NCBI GenBank assembly: GCA_022072445.1
Contig: JAJVHV010000003.1
Span: 135,204 to 199,203, forward strand
Direction of reading: 5' to 3'
From: Phycisphaerae bacterium
GTDB lineage: Bacteria > Planctomycetota > Phycisphaerae > UBA1845 > Fen-1342
DNA length: 64,000 bases
Positions 53,469-61,919 of the stretch are shown in pieces. The notes beneath the pieces are model-generated. The model had not been told where the DNA came from. It ran no database searches and saw only the letters and a program-made list of their open reading frames with translations. The translations under genes and the position numbers were made by a program. How positions within the stretch are numbered: the first letter of the stretch is position 1; the number at the start of each line of letters is the position of its first letter.

Positions 53469-54995
53469 TCATGCCGCGCGCCGCGGTTGAAACGCCGCCG
53501 CCAGCACGCCGGACATGGCGCACAGGCCGGCGGCGATGGCAAAGGCCGTGAAGTAGCTGCCGGTGGCCTGCATCGCCAGATTGCCCAGCGCAACGCCGCT
53601 CACGCCCGCGACGCCATAGGACGTGAAGACCCAGCCGTAGTTCGCGCCCAGGTTGCGCGTTCCGAAGAGATCGGCCGTCAGCGACGGGAAGACCGCGAAG
53701 TTGCCGCCGAAGTTGAAGCCCACGCAGGCGGCGCCGGCGGCGAGCGCGAAGGGCGTCTGGAGCGTGGCGAGCAGGAGCATGGTGGCAGCCTGGAGGAGAA
53801 ACATCGCGGCCATGGCGGCCCGCCGGCCGATGCGGTCGGAGGCCAGACCCCAGACGATGCGGCCGATGGCGTTGAAGACCGCCAGCCACGCGACCGCTTC
53901 AGCGCCGCGCAGCAGCAGCGTCCGTTGCGCCGCGTCATCGGGCGGGGCGGCGGCGCGCGTCGCGGCATCGATCAACTGCTGGCCGGCGAACGGCTTGAGG
54001 ATTCCGATCACCATCAGTCCGGCCAGGGCTCCGCTGAAGAACATCAGCCAGACGACGTAAAACGAGCGCGTCCGCAGCGTCTGCCGCCAGCTCAGGTCGC
54101 GCGAGGCGGCGGCACCGCCCGCCGTGCCGGGCGCGGCTGCCGGAGCCGGCGGATTGCACAACAGCGCAGCCCCGCAGCAGACCGCGACCAGGCAGACAAC
54201 GGCGTGCACGGTGAAGAAGCGCTGGATGCCGTAGCGCTCGATGAAGCCGACGGCGCCGAGAATCCACTTCTGGCTGAAGAGCCACGCCCCCAGGCCGAAG
54301 CCCGCGACCGCGATTCCGGACACGAGCCCTTTGTGCCGCGGGAACCACTTCACCAGAGCCGCGATCGGACAGACATACGCAAAGCCGATCCCGGTGCCGG
54401 CCACCAGACCGACGCTCGCCCAGAGCAGCAGCAGCCGGTCGCGCGCGTCGCCGGAGATCAGGCGGTTGCCCAGCGTCACGCCGGCGACGACGACGGCGGC
54501 GACGATGCCCAGCGGCAGGTAGCGCAGCAGCGGAAAGGCCTGCTCATCCATCCGCCCGACGAGCAGGTGATAGACCAGCAGCAGCGCGATCGTGATGCCG
54601 CCCATCAGCACGCCGTGACACAGGTAGAACGTCGCCAGGTTGTGCGCCTGACTGGCGATGAGAAAGCCCAGCGCCAGAAGGCAGCCGCCGAGCGTCGCCG
54701 TGAAGCGCGGGCCGCGCAAATCCTGCAACCGGCCGGCGAAGACCATTGAGCCGGCGAAGCTCAGCAGGCAGATGCCGAAGGCGTATTTGAGGTGGTTCTG
54801 GCCGATGCCGCCCGCCGCGCTCACGTCGGGCGCGGCGTTGAGCCACTCGCGTTCGAGCGGCTGCCAGAAGATACTGTAACCGTAGACGGTGCCCAGGATG
54901 AGCTGGATGATGATGGCACCGAACAGCACGTGCCAGCGTGTGCGTACCACCGTCGCGGTCCTGCTTGTGGTTTGCTCCAACGCAATCGTCGTCAT
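53469..54995 (-). CDS. MFS transporter, oxalate/formate antiporter (OFA) type
   Basis: This 508-residue protein starts MTTIALEQTTSRTATVVRTR followed by 12 membrane segments. Typical OFA signs are FGAIIIQLILGTVYGYSIFW, the long YVCPIAALVKWFPRHKGLV, and GVASDRIGRR-like GLASDRIGRRAAM. It may carry a small carboxylate. The upstream open frame is unrelated. A 300-base gap to the next gene on the right contains no clear element. A substrate among the aromatic-acid or pyruvate by-products of the adjacent lyases is possible, but this is only inference. Confidence 0.85.
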   Translation of the reverse strand: MTTIALEQTTSRTATVVRTRWHVLFGAIIIQLILGTVYGYSIFWQPLEREWLNAAPDVSAAGGIGQNHLKYAFGICLLSFAGSMVFAGRLQDLRGPRFTATLGGCLLALGFLIASQAHNLATFYLCHGVLMGGITIALLLVYHLLVGRMDEQAFPLLRYLPLGIVAAVVVAGVTLGNRLISGDARDRLLLLWASVGLVAGTGIGFAYVCPIAALVKWFPRHKGLVSGIAVAGFGLGAWLFSQKWILGAVGFIERYGIQRFFTVHAVVCLVAVCCGAALLCNPPAPAAAPGTAGGAAASRDLSWRQTLRTRSFYVVWLMFFSGALAGLMVIGILKPFAGQQLIDAATRAAAPPDDAAQRTLLLRGAEAVAWLAVFNAIGRIVWGLASDRIGRRAAMAAMFLLQAATMLLLATLQTPFALAAGAACVGFNFGGNFAVFPSLTADLFGTRNLGANYGWVFTSYGVAGVSGVALGNLAMQATGSYFTAFAIAAGLCAMSGVLAAAFQPRRAA

Positions 54996-55303
54996 TGTTC
55001 GACAACCTCGCTGCCAGGCGCGCCAGCGCCGATAACCCGAATCCCCCCGCTTCACTTCCTGCCCGGATGTAGGGAAGTGCACGCAAGCGGCGTGCCACGC
55101 GTGGTCCGGCGGGAGACGGGGTGGAGTAGCGGGGTGGGTTGAAACGCGCAGCCCTGCGGGAAACCGCGCTACCCGGCCGTTCGGACGCGCCAATCCTGCC
55201 GAACTGAAGCCGGGAATGGCACTTGCATTGCGCTCATCGCTACGGGCCGGCGCGTCGAGGCTGACGCGGGCGTCGTCTCTGTGAGAATCTAGGAGAGCCG
55301 CAG

Positions 55304-56707
55304 ATGTTGGGTCGCCGAGCGTGGGCTGAGCCGTGGAAAGTGAAGATGGTGGAGCACCTGCGGATGACGACGCGCGGCGAGCGTGAGCGGGCGATCCGGG
55401 AGGCGGGGTTTAACACGTTTCTGCTGCCGAGCGAGCTGGTCTACATCGATCTGCTGACGGATTCGGGCACGTCGGCGATGAGCGACCGGCAGTGGGCCGG
55501 GCTGATGATGGGTGACGAGGCGTACGCGGGGTCGATGAATTTCTATCATCTCGAGGCCGCGGTGCGGAAGTTCTACGGCTACAAGCATCTGATTCCGACG
55601 CACCAGGGGCGCGGGGCCGAGCACATTTTGAGCCAGCTCTGCATCGGATCGGGGCAGATCGTGCCGGGCAACATGTATTTCACGACGACGAAGATGCACC
55701 AGGAGCTGGCGGGCGGGACGTTCGCCGACGTGATCATCGACGCGGCGCACGATCCGGCCAGCGAGCACCCGTTCAAGGGCAACTGCGACCTGGCGAAGAT
55801 CGAGAGGCTGATCCGCGAGTTCGGCGCCGAGAAGATCGCCTATCTGTCGCTCGAGACGAACGTCAACATGGCGGGGGGGCAGCCGTGCAGCCTGGAGAAC
55901 ATTAAGGCGACGTGCGAGCTATGCCACCGGCACGGGATCAAGGTGTTTCTGGACGCGACACGGGCGGTGGAGAACGCGTATTTCATTCAGCAGCGCGAGC
56001 AGGGCTGCGCGCGCATGTCGCTGGCGGAGATCCTGCGCGCCATCTGCGACTGCACCGACGGCTGTACGATGTCGGCCAAGAAGGACGCGCTGGTCAACAT
56101 CGGCGGGTTTCTGGCGGTGAATGACGACGAGCTGGCCGAGCGGGCGCGGAACATGGTCGTGGTGTACGAGGGGCTGCACACGTACGGCGGGCTGGCGGGG
56201 CGCGACATGGAGGCGATGGCGATCGGGATCGAGGAGTCGGTGCAGCTCGATCACATGCACGCGCGGATCGGGCAGGTCGAGTATCTGGGGCACAAGCTGA
56301 TCGACGCGGGTGTGCCGATCGTACGGCCGATCGGCGGGCACGGCATTTTTCTGGATGCCAAGGCGTTTCTGCCGCACGTGCCACGCGAGGAGTTTCCGGC
56401 TCAGGCACTCTCGGCGGCGCTGTACGTCGACTCGGGGGTGCGGGCGATGGAGCGCGGGGCGGTGTCGGCCGGGCGCGACAAGCAGACCGGCAAGCACCTC
56501 TTTCCGGCGCTGGAGCTGGTGCGGCTGACGATTCCGCGGCGGGTGTACACGCAGGCGCACATGGACGTGACGGCGGAGTCCGTGATATCACTCTATGAGG
56601 ATCGCCAGAGCATCGTCGGGTTGCGGTTCACGTACGAGCCGAAATACCTGCGCTTCTTTCAGGCGCGATTCGAGCCGGTGCGCGGCGAGCGGGTGCTGAC
56701 GAACTGA
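55304..56707 (+). CDS. tpl: Tyrosine phenol-lyase
   Basis: This 467-residue PLP enzyme matches the beta-eliminating lyase family closely: NTFLLPSELVYIDLLTDSGT, AMSDRQWAGLMMGDEAYAGS, PTHQGRGAEHIL, CTMSAKKDALVNIGG (PLP lysine) and YEGLHTYGGLAGRDMEAMAI. The region GVRAMERGAVSAGRD carries the arginine and MERG that mark tyrosine phenol-lyase rather than tryptophanase (which has an IEIG/CEIG-type motif). It splits tyrosine into phenol, pyruvate and ammonia. AGGAGAG precedes the start. A tryptophanase gene follows after 54 bases. Confidence 0.88.
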   Translation: MLGRRAWAEPWKVKMVEHLRMTTRGERERAIREAGFNTFLLPSELVYIDLLTDSGTSAMSDRQWAGLMMGDEAYAGSMNFYHLEAAVRKFYGYKHLIPTHQGRGAEHILSQLCIGSGQIVPGNMYFTTTKMHQELAGGTFADVIIDAAHDPASEHPFKGNCDLAKIERLIREFGAEKIAYLSLETNVNMAGGQPCSLENIKATCELCHRHGIKVFLDATRAVENAYFIQQREQGCARMSLAEILRAICDCTDGCTMSAKKDALVNIGGFLAVNDDELAERARNMVVVYEGLHTYGGLAGRDMEAMAIGIEESVQLDHMHARIGQVEYLGHKLIDAGVPIVRPIGGHGIFLDAKAFLPHVPREEFPAQALSAALYVDSGVRAMERGAVSAGRDKQTGKHLFPALELVRLTIPRRVYTQAHMDVTAESVISLYEDRQSIVGLRFTYEPKYLRFFQARFEPVRGERVLTN

Positions 56708-56761: not shown

Positions 56762-58120
56762 GTGAAGACGATCATCGAGCCGTTTCGGATCAAGGTGGTG
56801 GAGCCGATCCGCATGACGACGCGCGAGGAGCGCGAGGAGATTCTGCGGCGGGCGGACTTCAACCTGTTCCGGATTCACGCCGACGACGTGCTGATCGACC
56901 TGCTGACCGACAGCGGGACGGGGGCGATGAGCAGCCTGCAATGGTCCGGCGTGATGAAGGGCGACGAGTCGTACGCCGGCGCGAAGAGCTGGTTTGTGTT
57001 GGAGAAGTCGGTGCGCGAGCTGACGGGCTTTGAGCACATTCTGCCGACGCACCAGGGCCGCGCCAGCGAGCGGATCCTGTTCGAGCTGGTCGGCGGACCC
57101 GGCAAGATCGTGCCGAATAACAGCCATTTCGACACGACCCGCGCCAACATCGAACACTCGGGCGCGAAGGCGGTCGATCTGCTGATCGCCGAGGGGCGGC
57201 AGCCGGCGCTGCGGCATCCGTTCAAGGGCAACATGGATGTGGGGGCGCTGGAGCGGCTGATCGCGGAAGTGGGGGCGGCGTCGATTCCGCTCGTGATGCT
57301 GACGGTGACGAACAACAGCGGCGGTGGGCAGCCGGTCAGCCTGGAAAACATCCGCGCTGTGCGGCGCGTCTGCGACCGGCACGGGCTGCCGCTGTTTCTC
57401 GACGCCTGCCGCTTCGCCGAGAACGCCTATTTCATCAAGCGGCGCGAGCCGGGCCAGGCCGACCGGCCGGTGCGGGCCATCGTGCGCGAGATGTTCGACC
57501 TGTGCGACGGCGCCACGATCAGCGCCAAGAAGGACGGGCTGGTGAACATCGGCGGCCTGCTGCTGCTGCGCGACGCCAACCTCGTACGCCGCGCCGACGA
57601 GCTGCTCATTCTGACGGAGGGATTCCTGACCTACGGCGGGCTGGCGGGCCGCGACCTGGAGGCCATGGCGCAGGGCTTCGAAGAGGTGGTGCACGAAGAC
57701 TACCTGCAATACCGCATCCGCAGCACCGAGTATCTGGGGGAGAAGCTGCTGGCGGCGGGCGTTCAGATTGTCGAGCCGCCAGGCGGCCACGCGATCTACA
57801 TTGATGCGGCGGCGTTCTGCTCGCACATCCCGCCGGAGCATTTTCCGGGGCAGGCGCTGGTGGTGGGGCTGTACCGGGAGGCGGGCATCCGAGCCTGCGA
57901 GATCGGGAGCGTGATGTTCGGACAGGGGGGGCGGCGGCCGGCAATGGAGCTGGTGCGGCTGGCGATTCCGCGGCGTGTGTATACGCAGAGCCACATCGAC
58001 TATGTGATCGAGGCGATCGCCGCCGTCCACGCACGGCGCGCGGAGCTTCGGCCGCTGGGGATCATCGAGGAGCCGCCCTCGCTGCGGCACTTCACGGCGC
58101 GATTTCGCGAGCGGGCGTGA
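56762..58120 (+). CDS. tnaA: Tryptophanase
   Basis: This 452-residue PLP enzyme of the same family starts at GTG: EPFRIKVVEPIRMTTREERE, LTDSGTGAMSSLQWSGVMKG, GDESYAGAKSWF, PTHQGRASERILF, ISAKKDGLVNIGG (PLP lysine) and GIRACEIGSVMFG, the last being the tryptophanase-type motif. It cleaves tryptophan to indole, pyruvate and ammonia. It forms a pair with the tyrosine phenol-lyase upstream, so both can release phenol and indole. No TnaC-like leader peptide or tryptophan permease is seen. Confidence 0.88.
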   Translation: MKTIIEPFRIKVVEPIRMTTREEREEILRRADFNLFRIHADDVLIDLLTDSGTGAMSSLQWSGVMKGDESYAGAKSWFVLEKSVRELTGFEHILPTHQGRASERILFELVGGPGKIVPNNSHFDTTRANIEHSGAKAVDLLIAEGRQPALRHPFKGNMDVGALERLIAEVGAASIPLVMLTVTNNSGGGQPVSLENIRAVRRVCDRHGLPLFLDACRFAENAYFIKRREPGQADRPVRAIVREMFDLCDGATISAKKDGLVNIGGLLLLRDANLVRRADELLILTEGFLTYGGLAGRDLEAMAQGFEEVVHEDYLQYRIRSTEYLGEKLLAAGVQIVEPPGGHAIYIDAAAFCSHIPPEHFPGQALVVGLYREAGIRACEIGSVMFGQGGRRPAMELVRLAIPRRVYTQSHIDYVIEAIAAVHARRAELRPLGIIEEPPSLRHFTARFRERA

Positions 58121-58944: not shown

Positions 58945-60243
58945 CTAGCTAACCATGATCCAGTCTACATATCCGGCCACATAGATCATTTGCAGCAGGG
59001 TCAGCGTGGTGATCACGGCGGTGATCGCCGCGCGGCGTCCCGCCCAGTGCCGCGTGGCAAGCCAGAGGAAGGTGGGCAACCCCATGAGGTGGTAGCGTGT
59101 GATGCCCAGCATGCGCCCGCCGGCGAACGGATCGGGCAGCCAGGCCATCACGAATACCAGAATCGTCACCAGCAGAAGCGGCCGAGGGAGCGGATGCGGA
59201 CGCGCCAGGCCGGCCATCGCCGCGCCCAGCAGCAGCAGGTTGAGCAGGTGATTCCAGTTGCGGCCGTCGGCGAGTTTGTCGACGTCGGCGCGTACGATCC
59301 ACTCGATAGTCTTGAGGGCCGGCTTGAAGACCGGCTGAAGGAACACGGCCTTGCGCCACGCGTTGGGCGGCAGGCGTTTTGCTTCCCACGAAACCTGGGC
59401 GGCGAAGTAGCCGTCGGGACGGCCGTAGTGCTGCCAGAGATATCCGAAATGCACCATGATCCCGCCGACCGACAGCAGCCCCAGAAACGCGGCGCGCAAC
59501 AGACGGAAGTGCAGCGGCCGCGAACCGGCTTGCAGAAGATTCATCAGGAACAGGACCACCGCCAGTACAACGCCGGTGGGGCGCGTCGCCGTGCATGCCG
59601 CGCAAGCGATCGCCGACAGCACGAAGCGGCTCCGGGCGGCCAGCCACAGCGAGAGGGCGATGCACAGAACAAAAACGCCCTCGCTGTATCCGGTCGAGAA
59701 GTACATCGCACCCGGAAATGCACACACCAGCAGGCTGGCACGCAGCGCTGTGGTGTCGTCGGTCAGCCGCCGGCACCAGTCGTGGAAAACAATGACGGCC
59801 AGCAGGCCGGCAACGTGCGAGACCAGCACCAGCGCCAGGTGCGCCGTCCAGTCGCTGACGGGATCGACAGGCGGCGCGGCCCCGCTGGCCAGCGCCACGA
59901 CGCCGCGAATCGCCTGCCAGACCGGCCAGGAGACCAGGGGGGCGAGCGGAAAGAACGCCGTCGCGTCGCCGATGCGGCCGCTGGCGTCCGCGGGCTGATA
60001 GCCGCGGCACATGATCTGAAGGTAGTGGCCCGAATCCCAGCGGATGAACGGGTTCGCCGGCCACCAGTCGCCGCCGCGGCCGTCGCGGTGTTGCGGCGTG
60101 GCGAAGGCGACGACGACGGCCAGGGCGCGCGTCAGCAGGTAGAACGCGACGGTGGCGGCGAGCGGCCCGCGGCGCGCGGCGGCGGGGTGCGGCGCGCGCT
60201 GGGGCGCGTGAGCCGATCCGGCCAGTTCCGGTGGCGCGCTCAC
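58945..60243 (-). CDS. Integral-membrane mannosyltransferase-like protein (PIG-V type)
   Basis: This 432-residue protein starts at a GTG that overlaps the stop of the preceding gene by 4 bases (GTGA). It has about ten membrane segments. A long loop after the first helix has IRWDSGHYLQIMCRGY and later AFFPLAPLVSWPVW, the pattern of GPI-mannosyltransferase 2/PIG-V-like enzymes in bacteria (catalytic Asp within R-W-D). It would transfer a sugar from a lipid-linked donor across the membrane. Coupling to the deacetylase-methyltransferase fusion suggests both act on one cell-envelope glycolipid or polysaccharide. Confidence 0.8.
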   Translation of the reverse strand: MSAPPELAGSAHAPQRAPHPAAARRGPLAATVAFYLLTRALAVVVAFATPQHRDGRGGDWWPANPFIRWDSGHYLQIMCRGYQPADASGRIGDATAFFPLAPLVSWPVWQAIRGVVALASGAAPPVDPVSDWTAHLALVLVSHVAGLLAVIVFHDWCRRLTDDTTALRASLLVCAFPGAMYFSTGYSEGVFVLCIALSLWLAARSRFVLSAIACAACTATRPTGVVLAVVLFLMNLLQAGSRPLHFRLLRAAFLGLLSVGGIMVHFGYLWQHYGRPDGYFAAQVSWEAKRLPPNAWRKAVFLQPVFKPALKTIEWIVRADVDKLADGRNWNHLLNLLLLGAAMAGLARPHPLPRPLLLVTILVFVMAWLPDPFAGGRMLGITRYHLMGLPTFLWLATRHWAGRRAAITAVITTLTLLQMIYVAGYVDWIMVS

Positions 60244-61919
60244 GTGAGTTCGATCTGCATGCCGACTGTGCGGTTCACGAGTGCCGGATGTCTCAGCAGC
60301 GTGACCCGCGCGTTGCGCGGCAGCACTTTGGTCAGCGCCGGGACTTCCGACTCGTATGCATGGATCAGCAGCAATCCGCCGGGCGCCAGGTGCCGCGGCG
60401 CCTGGCCGACCAGCCGCGCGATCAGTTGCTGGTGGAACTTCAGCACGCCACGCGGCATGGCCAGGCCCGACTGCCGCCGGATGAACGGCACGCGCCGCAG
60501 CACGTTCTTGGCCACGTTCATCGCAAACGTGTCGGGCCGGAAGTTGTAGGGCGGGTTGAACGCGATCAGGTCGAATGGCCCGCTGACGCGTTCGAGCAGG
60601 TCGCTCTGCAGGCACTCCATGCTGACGCCATGGCGGCTGGCGTTACGCTGCGCGGTGCGGACGGCGGCCGGGGAGATGTCTACGGCGACGACGCTGCGCC
60701 CCATGCGGGCCATGACGATTCCCACCACGCCGGTGCCGGTGCCCAGATCGAGCACGCGCTGTCCGGGGCGTGAGATCGCGAGCGCCAGTTGGGCGAACGC
60801 GCGGCTGTCGGGCTGCGCCTCGCTCACCCAGATCGGCCCCGGGACCTCCAGCGCGTCGCACAGGCTCTGAACGTCGCTACGAATCTCGGGTGTCGTCTGT
60901 GCGGGCATCGCGGCACGCTCCTCGCTGGCCCATTGGGCATGGTTCATGACGATCCACTCGCGCCGGCGGAGATAGTCGCGCAGCGCCGGCGAGCAGATCG
61001 ACCGCAGCTCCGTCGCGCGCTGCGGCGCCGCCACGTATTCGTGCAGATACGCGATCGGGCAGCCGGCGTCGCGCGCGTCCGGACCGACCGCCGGATGCAG
61101 CAGCAGCTCGACGGAGCCGTAGGGGACGGCGGAGAGTCCGGCGCGGATGGTTCGCAGGCTCATGTTCGCGGTGTAGCTAACGCCGATGAAGTAGTCGGTG
61201 GTCAGCAGGCCGTTGCGCGTCGCGTAGCGCTCGTTGCGCCGCGCGAAGCGATTCAGCAGCACGCGCTTGACGATGTTCGAGTTGAGATAGGGCTGAAGCC
61301 GGCCGCGCAGCCCGCTGTGCGAGTGCGGCAGCTCGCGCGCAATGCGCACGACCGGCACGCCATACTCGGCCGCCAGCCTGCACGTCAGCCGGAAAATCCG
61401 CGGAATCATGTGGACGTGCTGGTGCGAGTTCAGATGATCGATCCGCACGCCGTCGCTCAGCACGCGCTCGATCTGCGCCCGGAACTCCGTCTCGATCTGG
61501 CTGATGCCGCGCGCGTCGCGGGCCGCCGAGAGCAGCCACGCGAATCCCGGCCGCAGCCGCCGGGCGGGCCCCAGCAGCCGGGCGACACGCGCCGGGGGCG
61601 CAACCGGATCGGCCTCGTTCAAGCACAGGTGCACGCCCACCCCCAACCCGGCGCACTCCGGCAGCACGGTCTCGATCGCGTGCCGATACGCAAATCCGTT
61701 CGCCCGCAGACACGTGCTGGTCAGCACGCCTCCCGACCACGCCCGCCGCACCCCTTCATTGAACGCGTACAGCAGCCCCAGATCGTCGGCCTCGAAAATG
61801 ATCGAGCGCCGGCCGACCGCGGCGGCCGCGGGCTCCGCCGTCGAGCCGCACTCCGGCGCGGCGGGCACGCCGGGGGGCATCAGAACGCTTTCCGACGTGG
61901 CCATGCTGCCGTACGCCAT
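60240..61919 (-). CDS. ChbG/YdjC-type carbohydrate deacetylase fused to a class I methyltransferase
   Basis: This 559-residue protein has two domains. Residues about 38-320 are a YdjC/ChbG deacetylase: EADDLGLLYAFNEGV (metal D45-D46), GVHLCLNE (H97) and RIDHLNSHQHVHMIP (D161, H166, H168, H170). Residues about 360-559 are a SAM-dependent methyltransferase: RVLDLGTGTGVVGIV (motif I, from 388), VVAVDISPAAV (SAM ribose site) and DLIAFNPPYNF (N-P-P-Y at 455-458), the last being usual for N- or RNA/protein-glutamine-methylating enzymes. The frame is continuous with no internal start of note. The joined enzyme may deacetylate and methylate amino sugars; this is not known of the family. Confidence 0.85.
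   Translation of the reverse strand: MAYGSMATSESVLMPPGVPAAPECGSTAEPAAAAVGRRSIIFEADDLGLLYAFNEGVRRAWSGGVLTSTCLRANGFAYRHAIETVLPECAGLGVGVHLCLNEADPVAPPARVARLLGPARRLRPGFAWLLSAARDARGISQIETEFRAQIERVLSDGVRIDHLNSHQHVHMIPRIFRLTCRLAAEYGVPVVRIARELPHSHSGLRGRLQPYLNSNIVKRVLLNRFARRNERYATRNGLLTTDYFIGVSYTANMSLRTIRAGLSAVPYGSVELLLHPAVGPDARDAGCPIAYLHEYVAAPQRATELRSICSPALRDYLRRREWIVMNHAQWASEERAAMPAQTTPEIRSDVQSLCDALEVPGPIWVSEAQPDSRAFAQLALAISRPGQRVLDLGTGTGVVGIVMARMGRSVVAVDISPAAVRTAQRNASRHGVSMECLQSDLLERVSGPFDLIAFNPPYNFRPDTFAMNVAKNVLRRVPFIRRQSGLAMPRGVLKFHQQLIARLVGQAPRHLAPGGLLLIHAYESEVPALTKVLPRNARVTLLRHPALVNRTVGMQIELT

Follow-up and report, generated by a model that had tools for sequence, protein, structure and literature searches.

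A YdjC/ChbG-type deacetylase fused to a predicted class I methyltransferase and linked to a PIG-V-like glycosyltransferase in six Planctomycetota genomes

The window examined here, a stretch of 64,000 nucleotides of planctomycete DNA, contains a gene whose predicted product is a YdjC/ChbG-type deacetylase joined to a class I methyltransferase that resembles PrmC, RsmC and GenN. The gene is linked, in all six genomes that carry it, to the gene of a PIG-V-like glycosyltransferase. We propose, as a reading about which we are evenly divided, that the two proteins form a self-contained envelope-sugar module, in which a polyprenyl-phosphate-HexNAc would be deacetylated in the manner of NaxD, N-methylated, and then transferred by the GT-C enzyme. 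The parts are familiar; the combination of a YdjC-methyltransferase fusion with a GT-C enzyme is one for which the first-pass annotation of this DNA knew of no named system, and our search of openly licensed papers returned no description of the architecture and nothing relevant to it.

The fusion gene and its neighbour

The features discussed below are the following.

60240..61919, minus strand: fusion gene, 559 aa, YdjC/ChbG-type deacetylase, linker and class I SAM methyltransferase
60945..61811, minus strand: YdjC deacetylase domain, residues ~37-325
Residues ~326-362 of the fusion: variable linker
60243..60833, minus strand: methyltransferase domain, residues ~363-559
58945..60243, minus strand: GT-C glycosyltransferase of the PIG-V family, 432 aa from a GTG start
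60240..60243, minus strand: stop/start overlap GTGA, 4 bp, junction ...CTCACGTGAGCG...

The open reading frame of the fusion is uninterrupted, with no internal stop, and the source genome contains one full-length copy of it. Pfam YdjC (PF04794) matches residues 40-318 (8.6e-50, 170.5 bits against a cut-off of 29.7) and the Pfam methyltransferase small domain matches residues 385-463 (6.3e-18). The AlphaFold model of the fusion was built with six sequences (pLDDT 74, pTM 0.69). The glycosyltransferase had been read as starting on a GTG that overlaps the stop of the fusion, which is what the junction displays, and translational coupling of the two genes is likely.

Conservation of the fusion and of its linkage to the glycosyltransferase

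Among 100 related genomes, five other Planctomycetota (G016, G019, G022, G026 and G048) carry the fusion as well, at 59-63% identity in this search and at 58-63% over all searches. Six full-length matches, those of these carriers only, are present in a 397-genome sample of the class, and in a 392-genome sample of the phylum the window's own fusion is the single match. The six carriers span two families (f1 and f4), and the fusion is the sole YdjC gene above the Pfam cut-off in each of them. Identity to the window's fusion amounts to 60-66% in the deacetylase domain, 63-69% in the methyltransferase domain and 22-46% in the linker. In the closest pair, dN/dS is ~0.13 for the deacetylase, ~0.05 for the methyltransferase and ~0.18 for the glycosyltransferase; both domains of the fusion are under purifying selection.

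The fusion is not an artefact, since it recurs in five other assemblies and since its methyltransferase half has a dN/dS of only ~0.05. A frameshift or a misassembly between 60840 and 60960, which the first-pass annotation had raised as one of two threats to its reading, is thus ruled out by the orthologous fusions and by the selection on the domains.

The gene for the PIG-V-like glycosyltransferase lies directly downstream of the fusion, on the same strand, overlapping it or within ~25 bp of it, in 6/6 genomes; the co-occurrence of the two genes, which had been suggested as a check, therefore holds, and in none of these genomes are they unlinked. No other neighbour is common to the six fusions: further sharing is confined to the near-identical pair G016/G026, at greater distance lie unrelated genes (SelB, tRNA synthetase, QueG, signal peptidase), and conserved RNase D or hemerythrin neighbours were not found near the other fusions. 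The trees of the fusion and of the glycosyltransferase conflict at a single split of moderate support and otherwise agree, and because of this split we do not claim strict co-inheritance.

There is no sign of recent horizontal transfer, the f4 copy being as far from the f1 copies as most f1 copies are from each other. A two-pattern scan of viral contigs found no fusion; in plasmids no match covers 80% of the fusion query and, among the matches listed, only YdjC/HpnK proteins occur.

The deacetylase half

The active site of ChbG consists of D10, D11, H61, H125 and H206 (PMC9402603). In the alignment to the ChbG structure 7vi8, these residues correspond to D45, D46, H97, H166 and H275 of the fusion, the match of H275 to H206 resting on a weak second alignment to 7vi8, and all five are invariant in the six fusions. 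The key residues listed in the first-pass annotation can be amended on this basis: D45-D46 and H166, which is catalytic in ChbG, are retained, H168 and H170 are conserved but lie outside the ChbG active-site set, and H97 and H275, both mapped from that set, have to be added. The first half of the fusion model matches ChbG-type structures with Z of 22-27 (27.2 for 2i5i, 25.8 for 7vi8). The half thus exceeds the curated Pfam cut-off of the YdjC family, has the active-site residues D, D, H, H, H and matches the fold; both its family and its active site lend good support to the predicted deacetylation chemistry.

The domain family, the fold and the active-site residues are those of ChbG, but ChbG is a single-domain protein whereas the fusion has two domains, is not accompanied by a chb operon and scores well under the cut-off of the chitin disaccharide deacetylase equivalog (NCBIfam PRK02134, 96 vs 227 bits). 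A role in chitobiose utilization is unlikely.

The top NCBIfam match of the fusion is HpnK (TIGR03473), which could point to a hopanoid head-group deacetylase of this type combined with a methyltransferase. However, the score of 132.1 bits falls short of the 232.6 bits that the HpnK model requires, and a squalene-hopene cyclase model gives weak, partial matches only in the six (draft) genomes, so that we regard a hopanoid role as extremely improbable.

The methyltransferase half

The second half of the fusion presents all the features of a class I enzyme of the N-methyltransferase type: a Rossmann fold, motif I and an N-x-P-Y motif IV. Motif I is DLGTGTG (391-397), of which D391, G393, G395 and G397 are kept in the alignment of the six fusions, as are D414, D440 and N455-x-P457-Y458; the segments SGLAMPR (484-490) and HAYESEV (520-526) are also conserved. 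Position 456 is either P or L. The motif is NPPY in the window's fusion (455-458), as the first-pass annotation had it along with motif I, but it is not invariant: 3/6 fusions read NLPY, and the conserved form is therefore N-[P/L]-P-Y. Both NPPY and NLPY are known in N-methyltransferases.

The best fold matches of this half are PrmA, PrmC, RsmC and N6AMT1 (Z ~18-20), and GenN is among its best PDB sequence matches. GenN, the gentamicin 3''-N-methyltransferase, is a PrmC-like enzyme that methylates an amino group of a gentamicin sugar, its substrates being soluble pseudo-oligosaccharides (PMC12689558). It differs from the fusion in belonging to an antibiotic pathway, in not being fused to a deacetylase and in its motif, NSPT in place of N-[P/L]-P-Y. 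The family of NodS is absent among the 19 Pfam matches at E up to 0.1.

Given the likeness of this half to PrmC, PrmA and RsmC in both sequence and fold, it may be asked whether it is a housekeeping PrmC/RsmC-like enzyme that was fused by chance and has no functional link to the deacetylase. We find this very improbable: the fusion is kept at 58-63% identity in six genomes of two families with a low dN/dS in its methyltransferase (~0.05), PrmC-like genes are present separately in the genomes, and the score is far under the PrmC cut-offs (74.2 vs 199.1 bits for the release-factor methyltransferase TIGR03534). A standalone orthologue of this half was not found in the 100 related genomes, where only PrmC-level matches of about 54 bits or less occur.

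Fold and motif support N-methylation, and nitrogen is most likely the methylated atom, although amides and rings are among the targets of N-[P/L]-P-Y enzymes too. The same lipid-carrier pathway could also operate with the methyl group placed elsewhere than on the freed amine, either on a sugar oxygen (hydroxyl or carboxyl) or on a different part of the glycolipid; class I methyltransferase families do mix N- and O-acceptors, and O-methyltransferases such as UbiG are among the weaker matches. That the best matches and folds are N-methyltransferases with N-[P/L]-P-Y, one of which acts on an amino sugar, and that in relatives the partner of YdjC is a formyltransferase, which is also an amine-modifying enzyme (see below), makes this alternative unlikely in our opinion, if worth keeping in mind.

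The glycosyltransferase

The downstream protein matches PIG-V (PF04188; 4.3e-8, 33.4 bits against a cut-off of 22.4) and no PDB sequence relative was found at E up to 1. A GT-C fold is seen in its AlphaFold model (pLDDT 86.8), with matches to ALG12 (Z 21.7), PMT4 (Z 20.0), ArnT (Z 18.5) and PimE (Z 13.3). The fusion-linked copies are 36-47% identical to that of the window, and R68-W69-D70-x-G72-H73-Y74 is invariant across the six. GT-C enzymes take lipid-phosphate or lipid-diphosphate sugar donors, and from the fold we therefore expect that the PIG-V-like enzyme uses a lipid-phosphate donor.

More distant PIG-V paralogues are present in the family, in other contexts. In many genomes of family f1 (L165-L174), a PIG-V paralogue recurs with a laccase-type oxidoreductase, a zinc dehydrogenase, a HEAT-repeat protein and a racemase. 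In the source genome, a PIG-V paralogue adjoins the gene of a 782-aa protein (G000:C41, L175:3843-6191) which matches HEAT and DUF6288 and is also the protein that the squalene-hopene cyclase model picks up there, with 41 bits.

YdjC genes elsewhere in the phylum

For comparison with the fusion we collected 66 loci of single-domain YdjC genes in the phylum; in one of them (G076), YdjC is instead fused to a formyltransferase. An ArnC-like GT2 is encoded on the same strand within 1.5 kb in 39/66 loci, or in 35/60 after removal of the loci used to seed the model search. The GT2s beside YdjC that we classified obtain their best scores with ArnC or PgfS models, at values under the cut-offs of these models. 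PMT_2 GT-C enzymes are found near YdjC in three loci. In G514 (L176:3964-7351), a PIG-V protein, an ArnC-like GT2 and YdjC are encoded by three consecutive genes, with no methyltransferase; this run may represent an unfused version of the pathway proposed here, minus the methyltransferase. On a Gastranaerophilales contig, a YdjC gene lies beside GT2-like and ArnT-like open reading frames, as judged by eye from the translations.

In G076 (L047:9253-11190), the YdjC deacetylase is fused to a formyltransferase (PF00551), and in G074 (L049:8267-9938) the genes of YdjC and of a formyltransferase (PF00551) are overlapping neighbours, beside a GT2. In these two relatives YdjC is tied to a second kind of enzyme that modifies amines, and the former locus is a second type of YdjC fusion.

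Two other associations were observed in the phylum. A UbiA prenyltransferase is encoded immediately upstream of YdjC in several planctomycetes (L183:5959-7074, L184:4109-5053, L192:4047-4997), and an LPG_synthase_TM protein (MprF flippase type) is encoded near YdjC and a GT2 (L214:633-1634, L206:5962-7179), an arrangement reminiscent of the C. difficile hexSDF operon (PMC10128005).

An ArnC-like GT2 was found neither beside the five orthologous fusions nor among the window genes by this fusion. ArnC-like GT2s are nevertheless encoded in 6/6 carrier genomes, where they are unlinked to the fusion, occur in non-conserved contexts and are weaker matches than the YdjC-paired ones. LpxC is also encoded in 6/6 carriers. 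The presence of these genes makes both carrier-linked sugars and lipid A plausible in these organisms.

This context also bears on the nature of the substrate. ChbG works on diacetylchitobiose (PMC9402603) and GenN on soluble compounds (PMC12689558), and the fusion might likewise act on soluble UDP-HexNAc, on a chitooligosaccharide or on the amino sugar of a secondary metabolite, the GT-C enzyme then using a downstream product. But the fusion is immediately coupled to a GT-C enzyme, a user of lipid-phosphate donors, genes for chitobiose use or antibiotic clusters were not seen next to the fusions, and YdjC genes in the phylum pair with polyprenyl-phosphate GT2s. A soluble substrate is, in our view, improbable. 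Genome context points to a HexNAc linked to polyprenyl phosphate as the most likely substrate, by analogy with NaxD.

Proposed pathway and comparison with known systems

The YdjC enzyme NaxD deacetylates undecaprenyl-phosphate-linked GalNAc, which leads to the addition of galactosamine to lipid A (PMC11279074). In the pathway that we propose, an ArnC-like GT2 encoded elsewhere in the genome would first make polyprenyl-phosphate-HexNAc on the cytoplasmic face of the membrane. The NaxD-like YdjC half would then remove the acetyl group, and the methyltransferase half would N-methylate the freed amine with SAM, the fusion passing the amine directly from one domain to the other. Last, the PIG-V-like GT-C enzyme would take the N-methylated amino sugar off its lipid carrier and attach it to an acceptor at the outer face of this membrane; candidate acceptors are lipid A, some other glycolipid and a protein. 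The first-pass annotation had predicted a small pathway for a methylated, deacetylated amino sugar, and although its residue list was partly off, as described above, this prediction fits all the evidence, including the fusion-glycosyltransferase link conserved in 6/6 genomes.

A more specific version, which we put forward tentatively as possible rather than probable, is that the fusion is a bifunctional lipid-carrier enzyme, which deacetylates and N-methylates an amino sugar linked to polyprenyl phosphate and supplies a GT-C enzyme that adds the N-methyl amino sugar to a glycolipid of the planctomycete envelope, lipid A perhaps. It would then be a NaxD pathway with built-in methylation, and would belong with several relatives where different enzymes, fused or neighbouring, cap the freed amine.

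One of the closest parallels is FlmF2-NaxD of Francisella, where a YdjC-family deacetylase acts on undecaprenyl-phosphate-HexNAc, has an ArnC-like GT2 as partner and provides an amino sugar for lipid A. Here, in contrast, a methyltransferase domain is added (to our knowledge NaxD has none), the transferase is PIG-V-like, the GT2 is not adjacent, and substrate and acceptor are those we propose from context. In the ArnC-ArnD-ArnT system of L-Ara4N, a lipid-phosphate amino sugar is likewise deacylated on its carrier and transferred by a GT-C enzyme, whose fold matches that of the window's enzyme (Z 18.5, as above). ArnT is, however, only 13% identical to it, the system has no methylation step, and ArnD is a NodB-type deformylase, not a YdjC protein. 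The predicted order of the two reactions of the fusion is that of NodB and NodS, which deacetylate GlcNAc and then N-methylate the same nitrogen in a SAM-dependent reaction (PMC5080398); these are separate proteins of other families that act on chitooligomers, whereas the fusion is a single protein and has no match to the Pfam family of NodS.

In well-studied bacteria, both surface charge and resistance to cationic peptides are altered by deacetylated amino sugars on lipid A. If our proposal is true, a fused deacetylase-methyltransferase adds N-methylation to the amino-sugar chemistry of lipid A, and offers a direct way into the envelope sugars of planctomycetes, about which little is known. 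The pattern seen across the phylum, YdjC with an ArnC-like GT2 and methyltransferase or formyltransferase add-ons, leads to predictions that are open to lipid mass spectrometry.

Other genes in the window

Elsewhere in the window, a gene that exceeds the NCBIfam cut-off for tyrosine phenol-lyase is in tandem with a tryptophanase-like gene (55304-56707 and 56762-58120, plus strand), and the gene of an MFS transporter (53469-55193, minus strand) is divergent from this pair.
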